From Micromonospora polyrhachis (GTDB taxonomy: Bacteria; Actinomycetota; Actinomycetes; Mycobacteriales; Micromonosporaceae): a stretch of DNA of 64,000 bases. The stretch covers positions 4,662,501 through 4,726,500 of the forward strand of contig NZ_JACHJW010000001.1 of NCBI RefSeq assembly GCF_014203835.1. Direction: 5' to 3'. The notes under the pieces are model-generated. The model had not been told where the DNA came from, did no database searches, and worked only from the letters and a program-made list of their open reading frames with translations. The position numbers and the translations under genes were made by a program. Positions 96 to 5,634 of this stretch are shown one piece after another. The first letter of the stretch is position 1, and the number at the start of each line of letters is the position of its first letter.

Positions 96-264
96 CCATC
101 GGTCAGCCGTAGCGGCATAGCTCGGGTTGGTGGGGATGCCCCCGAAGTCAGCGCCCGGCCGGCCGTGCTCGACTAGCCCAACCGTCCAGTCGTACTCGCT
201 GGAATTCGGCGGGTAAATCGTCGATCGCAAATTCGACACAGCCGCGAACCGACGGTTTCACTCA

Positions 265-294
265 TTGACATACATCTATGTTTGTCGATATGTT
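265..294 (+). promoter_or_regulatory. Sigma-70-type promoter of the secreted protease
   Basis: A perfect -35 box TTGACA lies at 265-270. After an 18-base spacer comes TATGTT at 289-294, a 4/6 match to the -10 consensus. The predicted start is near base 301, giving a leader of about 64 bases before the protease start at 365. A near-consensus housekeeping promoter suggests strong expression. This is seen by eye only. Confidence 0.55.
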
Positions 295-364
295 GCCGGT
301 ATCGCGATGAACCACGGGGGCGCTCCAGTTTTCGATCCGAGAATCGAACGCTGGGAAGGATTTC

Positions 365-1336
365 ATGAGAACGTCAAGACGGCTTCTGGCCCTGTCGGCC
401 CTGATCCTGCCGGCGGTCCTCGCCGGTACGCCGGCGCAGGCCGCCACCAACATCGACACCACGCTGGGCGCGGCCGTGCCGGCCGGTGTCACATCGATCG
501 AGCGCGAGGCCGGGTCCACCTCGCAGGCCGCTGCATACTGGACGGCCGACCGGATGGCGGCGGCCACACCGGCGGACGAGGTGGAGAAGTCCGCCGGCCC
601 AATCGCCCAGAGTCCCGCGCCGGAGCAGGTGCGGCGCTTCGCGGAGGCCGTGGCGCCGAAGGATGGCGGCGACTTCAACACCCAGCTGAACGAGTCGATC
701 ACCGTGGGGAAGATCTTCTATACCAGTTCCACAGACGGTCGCGGCCACTACTGCTCCGCAAGCGTGGTCAACAGCACGGCACGCAACATGGTCTTCACGG
801 CCGCGCACTGCGTACACGACGGGCCGGGCCGGGACTGGCATACCGCGAACTGGATGTTCGTGCCGTCGTACCGCAACGGTGCACAGCCGTACGGCACCTG
901 GGACTGGTCCACGCTTGCGGTGCCGAGCGGCTGGATCAGCACCCGTGAGCGGCAGTACGACGTGGCGATCGCACTCGTCCACGGCAGTCGATCCATCGTG
1001 GATGCGGTGGGTGCCAACGGGCTGCTCACCGGCGGTGGCCGTGAGTACCACTACGACATCTTCGGCTACCCGAGCAACAAGGACAGCGGCCAGATTCAGT
1101 GGGTCTGCTCCGGCACGTCGCGGGACGCAGGCAGCAACCGGATCGAGATGGACTGCGGATTCGGCGGCGGTTCCAGCGGCGGTCCCTGGTACTACAGCTA
1201 CAACAACACCACCAGACGTGGTGACGTGCACGGGGTGATGAGTTACAGCAGCGGCTCGAACACGAACGGCTCGCCGTACTTCTCCGCAGCGGTAGTGGGG
1301 ACACTTTACGATACGTATGCGAACGATACCTGGTGA
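365..1336 (+). CDS. Secreted trypsin-like serine protease (S1 family)
   Basis: This 323-residue protein starts with a Sec signal peptide (MRTSRRLLALSALILPAVLA, with a likely AQA cleavage site near residue 26). A propeptide of roughly 90 residues follows and contains AYWTADRM. The chymotrypsin-fold domain has the His motif FTAAHC, the probable Asp motif YDVAIALV and the Ser motif GGGSSGGPW. It resembles V8/glutamyl-endopeptidase-like exoproteases of actinomycetes. It should be exported and activated by propeptide removal. A GGAAGG element precedes the ATG by a few bases and a near-consensus promoter lies upstream. A strong hairpin follows directly. The substrate cannot be deduced. Confidence 0.88.
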   Translation: MRTSRRLLALSALILPAVLAGTPAQAATNIDTTLGAAVPAGVTSIEREAGSTSQAAAYWTADRMAAATPADEVEKSAGPIAQSPAPEQVRRFAEAVAPKDGGDFNTQLNESITVGKIFYTSSTDGRGHYCSASVVNSTARNMVFTAAHCVHDGPGRDWHTANWMFVPSYRNGAQPYGTWDWSTLAVPSGWISTRERQYDVAIALVHGSRSIVDAVGANGLLTGGGREYHYDIFGYPSNKDSGQIQWVCSGTSRDAGSNRIEMDCGFGGGSSGGPWYYSYNNTTRRGDVHGVMSYSSGSNTNGSPYFSAAVVGTLYDTYANDTW

Positions 1337-1340
1337 GTGA

Positions 1341-1380
1341 CAGTCTGCCTGGTGTGCCGCGTGGCACACCAGGCAGACTG
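1341..1380 (+). terminator. Perfect 18-bp hairpin after the protease gene
   Basis: The arms CAGTCTGCCTGGTGTGCC (1341-1358) and GGCACACCAGGCAGACTG (1363-1380) are exactly complementary around the 4-base loop GCGT. The hairpin starts 4 bases after the protease stop. There is no T-tract, as is common for actinobacterial terminators. It separates the protease from the small gene at 1412 and may act as a terminator or as a 3' mRNA stabiliser. Confidence 0.75.
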
Positions 1381-1411
1381 GTATGCAACCCACCCGACCC
1401 AGGGAGGCGAC

Positions 1412-1615
1412 ATGTCACTCCGCGTACTGCTGGGTGCGGCCGGAGCCGCAGCGCTGGCAGGGGCCGCAGCTATCGTGATCATCGCGATGCGCGACACCGA
1501 GGCGCCACACCCCGCGCCCGGCCCGGTTGTCGCGACACACAACTCGAGCCCCGGCGCCACGGACCCGTCCGGTTACTGGACCGAGGAGCGCATGAAGGAC
1601 GCGATCGGCGGTTGA
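1412..1615 (+). CDS. Small exported or membrane-anchored peptide with a protease-propeptide motif
   Basis: This 67-residue protein begins with one hydrophobic segment (residues about 2-25, SLRVLLGAAGAAALAGAAAI) that could be a signal peptide or anchor. A Pro/Ala-rich stretch follows, and it ends in SGYWTEERMKDAIGG. The ATG at 1412 is chosen because GGGAGG sits 4 bases upstream; the frame is open further back to 1337 but without a ribosome site. The end motif YWTEERM matches AYWTADRM in the propeptide of the protease immediately upstream. It could be a free-standing propeptide-like partner or the remnant of a duplicated protease gene. I do not recognise a named family. Confidence 0.6.
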   Translation: MSLRVLLGAAGAAALAGAAAIVIIAMRDTEAPHPAPGPVVATHNSSPGATDPSGYWTEERMKDAIGG

Positions 1616-1798
1616 ACCGCACTCCGCTCGGGTGACTCGTCGTAACGGGCGGTCCGGGTTTCGACTGTTGTGGCGCAGGGGCCCACTCCGAGACCCGCCG
1701 TGGGCCGGTGTCTGGCGCCGGTAGTATCGGACGTCTTTATGATCAGGTGCGTTGACCGCAGTCGCGGCCGGTGACATCGCAGGTGAGAGAGGTCAGCG

Positions 1799-4181: not shown

Positions 4182-5623
4182 CCCTGGTCGCCGGGGTCGA
4201 CTCGTCGACCCAGTCGTGCAAGGTGGTGGTCCGTGACGCGGAGACCGGAGCGCTGGTCCGGCAGGGGCGGGCCGCCCATCCGGACGGCACCGAGGTCGAC
4301 CCGCAGGCCTGGTGGCAGGCGTTGCGGCAGGCCGCTGCCCAGGCGGGCGGGCTGGACGACGTGGCCGCGGTCTCGGTCGCCGGTCAGCAGCACGGCATGG
4401 TCTGTCTCGACGACGCCGGTACGGCCGTACGCCCGGCCCTGTTGTGGAACGACACCCGGTCGGCGCGGGCGGCGGCCGACCTGGTCGCGGAGCTGGGCGG
4501 CGGACAGGCCGGGGCCAGGGCCTGGGCGGAGGCGGTGGGCAGTGTCCCACTGGCTGCCTTCACCGTGACCAAGCTGCGCTGGCTGGCCCGGCACGAGCCG
4601 GAGCTGGCGGCGCGGGTGAGGGCCGTCTGCCTGCCGCACGACTGGTTGACCTGGAAACTGGGTGGGACTGGCGGCGTCGCGGCTGACGACACCAGTACGG
4701 GCGACATCGGGGCGCTACGTACCGACCGGGGGGATGCCAGCGGCACCGGCTACTGGTCCCCGGCGACCGGCGAATACCGGCTTGACCTGCTGGAACATGC
4801 CTTCGGTCGGTCTCTCGTCGTGCCCGAGGTGCTTGGACCGACGGGCCGGGCCGGAGAGTTGCGCAGCGGCGTGCCGATCGGGCCGGGCACCGGCGACAAC
4901 GCCGCTGCGGCGCTCGGGGTCGGTGCGGTCCCCGGCGATGTGGTGGTCTCCATCGGCACCTCGGGCACCGTGTTCAGCGTCGCCGACACCCCGGCGGCGG
5001 ACGCGTCCGGCGCGGTGGCCGGTTTCGCGGACGCGACCGGGCGATTCCTGCCGCTGGTCTGCACACTCAACGCGGCCCGGGTGTTGGATGCCACCGCCAC
5101 GATGCTCGGGGTGGACCTGGACGAGTTGGCCCGACTGGCGCTGTCGGCACCGGCCGGCGCCGACGGGCTTGTCGTCGTGCCGTACCTGGAAGGGGAACGC
5201 ACCCCCAACCGGCCGCAGGCCACCGGGTCGGTGCATGGCCTGACCCTGCGTACCGCCACCCCCGCCCACCTGGCTCGGGCAGCGGTCGAGGGACTGCTCT
5301 GTGCGCTCGCTGACGGGCTGGCGGCGCTGGTCGCGCAGGGAGCCACCGTCGACCGGATCATCCTGGTGGGTGGGGGAGCACGTTCCGAGGCGGTCCGCCG
5401 GATCGCGCCGCAGGTCTTCGGCTGTCCTGTCCGGGTGCCGCCGCCGGGGGAGTACGTCGCCGACGGGGCGGCCCGCCAGGCCGCCTGGGTCGCCCTCGGT
5501 GGTGCGCAGCCACCGTCGTGGACCATCGAAGAGGCACCCGAGTACGACGCGACGCCCGTCCCGGCCATCCGCCACCGGTACGCCGACGTCCGCGACCTGA
5601 CCGCGAGCCGCCCCACCGTCTGA
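4178..5623 (+). CDS. xylB: Xylulokinase
   Basis: This 481-residue FGGY-family carbohydrate kinase phosphorylates xylulose to xylulose 5-phosphate, feeding the pentose phosphate pathway. The N-terminal ATPase-fold domain begins [19 protein letters not shown] and the LLWNDTRS region line the sugar site. GTSGTVFSV and [18 protein letters not shown] are the phosphate and adenosine motifs of the second domain. The length is normal for the family. Its ATG overlaps the xylA stop by 4 bases. A GGGCCC-armed hairpin ends the operon 12 bases after the stop. Confidence 0.96.
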
Positions 5624-5634
5624 GGTGTTAGGAA

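Follow-up and report, generated by a model that had tools for sequence, protein, structure and literature searches.

A tiny putative membrane protein carrying a protease propeptide motif, encoded behind a secreted S1 protease gene in Micromonospora polyrhachis

Known propeptide-like partners and the M. polyrhachis locus

In Streptococcus pyogenes, the small protein Spi is encoded directly beside the secreted protease SpeB and is regarded as a propeptide analogue, a description credited to Kagawa 2005 in the available part of one report (PMC2873492). In Plasmodium, SUB1-ProM is a stand-alone, subtilisin propeptide-like inhibitor encoded beside serine protease genes, and its inhibition has been demonstrated, according to the accessible portion of another report (PMC6993865). 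Furthermore, staphostatins and the Bfi proteins of Bacteroides are products of small genes located beside, and co-transcribed with, genes for secreted proteases; in the portion available, the Bfi proteins are predicted to be exported or to be lipoproteins and are described as resembling staphostatins, with no propeptide identity (PMC2873492), and the binding of staphostatins is described in excerpts of a further report (PMC7863939). The gene pair analyzed here lies in a window of 64,000 nucleotides (the whole stretch of DNA that was analyzed; Table 1) and resembles all of these systems in that a small gene accompanies a secreted protease gene. As with Spi and SUB1-ProM, the small gene is separate and adjacent, its product resembles the propeptide of its own protease, and, as for SUB1-ProM, the neighbor is a serine protease. 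However, SpeB is a C10 cysteine protease of another sequence, and the window pair shares a short motif only, mostly behind a membrane segment, with inhibition being presumed; SUB1-ProM, as far as the excerpts describe it, belongs to a subtilase system of a eukaryote and resembles a folded propeptide domain; and staphostatins, which Bfi proteins resemble, are folded barrels in the portions consulted. A staphostatin-type β-barrel was rejected for the tiny protein, judging from its 67 residues, which form one hydrophobic segment followed by a linker rich in Pro and Ala and by a tail. In the literature searched (mostly open, with few subscription papers), only analogues of this protease with its motif peptide were found, and neither the motif string YWTPERM nor a description of the propeptide motif was encountered. 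Propeptide analogues as a kind are already known, and the short-motif, anchored version beside this protease appears to be new.

Both open reading frames (ORFs) and both motifs lie where the initial annotation had placed them (Table 1). The first ORF encodes a preproprotein in which TAAHC and GGGSSGG constitute the catalytic His and Ser sites, and it belongs to the S1 family (PF00089, Trypsin). The nearest solved relatives of its catalytic domain, 3WY8 and 3CP7, are the serine proteases Anisep and AL20, respectively, according to the available part of their description (PMC6524800). 3WY8 aligns to residues 114-319 and 3CP7 to residues 111-309; the YWTADRM motif (Y58 to M64) therefore precedes the mature domain, since these relatives align only from about residue 111. 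The solved chains of Anisep and AL20 differ in being devoid of the motif, and a partner gene for either was not found in the literature searched. In an alignment of 16 proteases, Y58, W59, T60, R63, A67, and P69 are invariant, and the remaining propeptide is hardly alignable. Two AlphaFold2 models, with 16 sequences each, reached mean pLDDT values of 47.6 and 56.8, with 31-43 in the motif blocks, and were not used for docking because of this low confidence in the propeptide.

The second ORF is preceded by a GGAGG sequence that is kept in the window and six orthologues. A hydrophobic N-terminus, claimed by the initial annotation, is present; it shows no clear cleavage site and is read as a putative membrane anchor. 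The motif Y55-W-T-E-E-R-M61 occupies nucleotides 1574-1594, and the tiny protein resembles the protease propeptide through YWTxxRMxxA only, whole-domain similarity being absent. Searches with the 67-residue protein returned no Pfam match up to an E value of 10, and its NCBIfam matches all fell far below the cut-offs.

Table 1. Positions of the protease gene, the tiny gene, and associated elements in the window
Feature	Position	Strand	Basis or remark
Window	bases 4662501-4726500		7.15-Mb single-contig genome
Conserved two-gene block (protease, hairpin, tiny gene)	220..1632	+	blastn
Promoter-like TTGACA-18-TATGTT	265..294	+	consensus scan, 1 found vs 0.4 expected; sequence resemblance only
Secreted S1 (trypsin-like) serine protease preproprotein, 323 aa	365..1336	+	PF00089 25.0 bits, cut-off 20.6
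YWTADRM motif, propeptide residues 58-64	536..556	+	sequence
Mature catalytic domain, approximate start	686..1333	+	extent of solved mature relatives; start inferred
Stem-loop, 18-bp perfect stem, no U run, between protease stop and tiny-gene start	1341..1380	+	
Ribosome-binding site GGGAGG of tiny gene	1402..1407	+	sequence; supports start at 1412
Tiny gene encoding 67 aa (membrane segment, linker, and propeptide motif at the C-terminus)	1412..1615	+	
Probable transmembrane segment, residues 5-26	1424..1489	+	best 19-residue hydropathy 2.32 before motif
YWTEERMKDAIGG tail of tiny protein	1574..1612	+	last 24 alignment columns pN/pS 0.16

Conservation of the two-gene block

Within the family, the protease was found at 90-100% identity in six of 250 genomes (the M. 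polyrhachis genome included), and the other matches listed at E values up to 1e-35 reach at most 42%. The tiny protein was detected at E values up to 2.4e-24 in an identical set of six of the 250. Named carriers of the pair are Phytohabitans flavus, Micromonospora chalcea, M. tulbaghiae, and M. humi; in M. rosaria, the protease is 66% identical and the tiny gene is diverged. By blastn, window positions 220-1632 correspond to 4221-5633 of the P. flavus locus L163 at 88%, with no further same-strand match at an E value of 1e-12 between the window and the P. flavus stretches compared. The matches to M. chalcea, M. tulbaghiae, M. humi, and genome G234 begin at 222-284 and stop at 1610-1618, the block match to genome G122 is split into two pieces, and the alignment with M. 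rosaria is limited to part of the protease; blastn was used for the surroundings, the tblastx version being mostly high-GC noise. An upstream neighbor is common to M. chalcea, M. tulbaghiae, M. humi, and G234, and the next genes of the window (mycothiol transferase, xylose isomerase, and the gene between them) are absent at an E value of 1e-5 from the loci of seven relatives, which extend about 1.2-2.7 kb beyond the tiny gene. The surroundings thus differ among the M. polyrhachis genome, Phytohabitans, and Micromonospora, and the pair has remained linked in three or more different settings. In G122 (L166:455-1370), the protease gene lies about 0.9 kb away from the conserved promoter segment, and the intervening DNA encodes a minus-strand ORF that is transposase-like as read from its translation, which suggests that an insertion element is lodged in the promoter region of the block.

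Upstream of the protease gene, the TTGAC of the promoter-like element is conserved in an alignment of six sequences, and the 5′ leader (window 300-364), which contains TTCGAT-N6-ATCGAA in the window, is strongly conserved in six aligned sequences. The two genes lie on the same strand with a gap of 75 nt, yet a strong conserved hairpin (z -5.3 versus shuffles) is located between them. Six orthologues share its stem with the window, substitutions in one arm being matched in the other, and the G234 stem contains internal mismatches. Among 13 other pairs folded, eight have a long stem (M. rosaria, G248, G730, G800, G942, G972, G116, and G233) and five do not (G672, G792, G699, G680, and G069). The hairpin may act as an attenuator or message stabilizer, and it could be a terminator.

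The initial annotation had offered a decayed protease copy as the alternative to a free-standing peptide, and a full protease at this site in relatives would have been its signature. Instead, the six other close orthologues examined carry a short ORF of 67-71 residues at the site. Pooled pN/pS over seven sequences, including the window, is 0.38 for the tiny gene and 0.12 for the protease, and the tiny gene is unevenly constrained, with 0.16 in the last 24 codon columns and 0.57 in the membrane part; the motif end of the tiny gene is under purifying selection. Decay or truncation of a protease gene copy would account for a hydrophobic N-terminus and motif that resemble the start of a preproprotein (37 residues, tblastn E value 0.013) and for 23 residues downstream that match the region near the Ser site on the plus strand (E value 0.42). 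However, the second match, at about 1645-1725, falls beyond the conserved block, length and end are the same in the six other orthologues, purifying selection is strongest on the motif, and the layout recurs in distant lineages, so that decay is regarded as very improbable. No convincing protease remnant was found behind the tiny ORF, and a protease pseudogene was rejected, given no relaxed selection, no convincing remnants, and no intact copy in relatives.

The motif in proteases and in free-standing genes

YWTxxRM was searched as a DNA pattern in 250 Micromonosporaceae genomes and matched in 96. In 80 Micromonosporaceae-derived loci, a partial census that mainly covers places with CGN arginine codons and leaves out several AGG and AGC places, 60 of 83 occurrences lie upstream of an S1 trypsin-like His motif, and the other 23 comprise two tiny genes, one frame-broken protease (L108), and 20 other frames, one of which has a stop within the motif. 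An alanine at +3 accompanies 59 of the 60 protease occurrences vs one of the 20 other frames in these loci; in an earlier set of 72 distinct protease segments, alanine at +3 was present in 71 and proline at +5 in 56. As judged from these sequences, the near-invariant YWTxxRMxxAxP is characteristic of the propeptides of such proteases and falls outside the solved mature enzymes. A motif query of a plasmid collection returned 11 records, including five of Xylella and three of S. clavuligerus; one record of each was translated and both are proteases, two further records are annotated as trypsin-like proteases, and one more is without annotation. Far outside Actinomycetota, a hypothetical protein on a Xylella taiwanensis plasmid (L282:1363-2400) is a secreted trypsin-like protease in which EKYWTEERMRTAKPMPMP precedes the catalytic domain. 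A composite motif query of a phage collection matched nothing. The record WNZI01000004.1 (L041), titled Vibrio cholerae 35D, contains an Arthrobacter-type protease that clusters with those of Arthrobacter in the tree, and the record looks contaminated or mislabelled.

Free-standing motif genes were sought by scanning 396 genomes of the phylum with a motif profile and by following up matches; G257 yielded a small ORF paired with a protease, and G582 yielded a small ORF. Pairs were found in Streptomyces-like genomes (G730, G672, G792, G699, G680, and G800, later G785, G697, and G733) and in Arthrobacter-like genomes (G257, G937, G840, Arthrobacter sp. ISL-72 [L044], G942, and G972, the last two with the looser form YFTExRR); both labels are inferred, from group f4/g50 and group f3, respectively, and the named case is Arthrobacter sp. 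ISL-72 of Micrococcaceae. In a table of 24 tiny genes, 22 lie behind a same-strand protease and start -23 to +144 nt from its stop with the chosen start codons, which are uncertain for four overlapping Arthrobacter-like ORFs. With the three later pairs and the free-standing genes added, 25 of 30 tiny genes adjoin a protease. A search for such proteins beside S1 proteases in other genomes, suggested by the initial annotation, bore out the pairing, since 21 of 26 motif genes in a position-blind set, which leaves out M. chalcea, M. rosaria, L044, and G248 as found via the protease locus, lie directly behind such a protease. For five free-standing genes (G777, G582, G691, G734, and Nonomuraea), the stretch read contains no protease, the G734 gene being close to a contig end. 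The motif membrane proteins of G691 (L284) and G734 (L285) share an extra two-cysteine tail, PCEHFPTxLSPDCW. Three more diverged membrane genes are located behind proteases in G116, G233, and G049. Eight other small proteins had no Pfam match at the cut-off, and five of these had none in NCBIfam. Furthermore, a different small lipoprotein-like family (119-123 aa) lies behind the protease in three related genomes (L151, L155, and L156) and is possibly another partner of the protease. In G690 (L290:4075 / L245), an unrelated protein in a 463-aa frame, without a Pfam match, terminates in VERFWTAERMGDAEPLPMPE and 14 further residues, closely resembling the tiny-gene tails, and no protease was seen within the 8 kb read.

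A first profile held five tiny-gene rows among 39, so that tiny genes scored high partly by construction; downstream of 132 protease-like ORFs, 19 tiny genes and three presumed tandem proteases (judged by their longer frames, L231 being a presumption only) scored at least 14 bits, followed by 11.0 and 5.3 bits. The profile was rebuilt from 34 protease segments alone because the first one included tiny genes. The rebuilt profile lowers most tiny-gene scores: 16 tiny genes reach at least 15.3 bits downstream of the 132 ORFs, the scores of G069, G730, and G248 are 13.4, 10.0, and 7.2 bits, respectively, the last two not being separated from chance, and the best downstream score outside tiny genes and tandem proteases is 9.9 bits. 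The best chance scores are 8.4 bits for 132 antisense controls and 5.6 bits for 105 segments at 1.5-2.3 kb. One genuine motif gene occurred per control set, with scores of 30.1 and 31.5 bits (the L267 tiny gene and a tandem protease in L143); the L267 gene was scored from a false reverse ORF (L267_3761p), and at least one such ORF is thus among the 132. Weak tiny-gene matches, with E values above 1e-5 in 32 of 38 genomes, are mostly low scores in large frames; G069 is a real pair among them, and the others were treated as hydrophobic-segment noise. Such weak matches, together with the abundance of small hydrophobic ORFs in high-GC genomes, would be compatible with an unrelated small membrane protein whose resemblance is due to chance, but the score gap with the protease-only profile, the clean controls, and the conservation of the motif render this explanation scarcely credible. 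For the window gene, which scores 21.0 bits with that profile vs 8.4 bits for the best chance control, a chance motif was rejected.

Possible roles of the tiny protein

As the initial annotation had proposed, a free-standing propeptide-like peptide is encoded here, consistent with recurrent pairing with proteases, purifying selection on the motif, and predicted membrane anchoring in the window. Its suggestion that the peptide serves as inhibitor, chaperone, or anchor holds as far as sequence goes, and no single one of these roles is picked out. A gene composed of anchor, linker, and motif behind the protease that it resembles is best explained as encoding a propeptide mimic; most likely, the tiny protein is a tethered mimic that would restrain or hold the protease at the cell surface, in the manner of SpeB-Spi or SUB1-ProM. 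In this mechanism, the tail would face the outside of the cell and would dock where the protease's own propeptide motif docks, so that freshly secreted or matured protease would be held and restrained at the producer's surface until leaving, and the conserved hairpin may set the level of the partner below that of the protease. The full mechanism, a membrane-tethered propeptide mimic acting on the adjacent protease, is given about an even chance, and that the tiny gene is a real, selected, and dedicated partner of the protease is held much more firmly.

Several findings run counter to a simple story, namely unanchored forms, genes away from proteases, the motif tail in G690, and partnerless proteases. 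Regarding architecture, most tiny proteins have a hydrophobic segment, that of G680 has a lipobox-like LAVGC, which points to an importance of anchoring and to an outward-facing tail, and six Arthrobacter-like genes encode no anchor; these Arthrobacter-like forms, which lack a hydrophobic segment and appear to be cytosolic, would protect the cytoplasm instead. The occurrence of the motif on different anchor kinds, on genes away from proteases, and on the G690 tail would also suit a short linear signal, in an otherwise hardly conserved propeptide, that is recognized by another factor such as a propeptide-processing protease or a secretion or folding factor, with the tiny protein competing for that factor, sensing it, or serving as a platform that recruits it. 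In the loci read, however, the motif with alanine at +3 is nearly confined to these proteases and their neighbors, and a third-party signal of this type is considered unlikely.

Partnerless proteases were counted on a protease tree, for which the 10 of the 132 ORFs that have no recognizable motif were removed, leaving 122, of which 21 have a partner. The partner label undergoes eight changes, at least four of them forced by strong branches, and shuffled labels give a mean of 19.6 changes, with none of 500 as low as eight; the partner is therefore clustered but not of one origin by strong branches, on a quick tree with long-branch warnings and a sample biased toward partners by the choice of some loci for their tiny genes, in which gains, losses, and transfers are not told apart. 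Since 101 of the 122 motif-bearing proteases are without a partner (98 if G116, G233, and G049 are counted), the partner is not generally required. This bears on the possibility that the tiny protein is a folding helper in trans or a pure surface anchor of the protease, with no inhibition. Membrane or lipid anchoring of the tiny proteins is in keeping with it, and subtilase propeptides of secreted enzymes can aid folding, according to the available portion of PMC6993865. However, the shared part spans only about 15-20 residues, the proteases already own a copy of the motif in cis, and most tree relatives are partnerless, so that help in folding or pure anchoring is judged improbable, somewhat more so than recognition by another factor.

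Returning to the propeptide mimic, a broader proposal, put forward tentatively and at slightly less than even chances, is that a short docking motif from the propeptides of a bacterial protease family has been repeatedly re-used as free-standing control peptides, each placed in a compartment by a membrane helix, a lipid anchor, or location in the cytosol. Such a minimal system of a propeptide in trans would travel with the protease as a two-gene block and would sometimes act remotely on other proteases. If true, a motif of about 15 residues, rather than a whole prodomain, could split off to control a secreted protease, and a first clue would be gained to what this propeptide motif does, no description of it having been found in the literature searched. 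Furthermore, a small peptide handle on a widespread protease group would become available, and the unannotated tiny proteins of Micromonospora-, Streptomyces-, and Arthrobacter-like bacteria would represent testable protease regulators.
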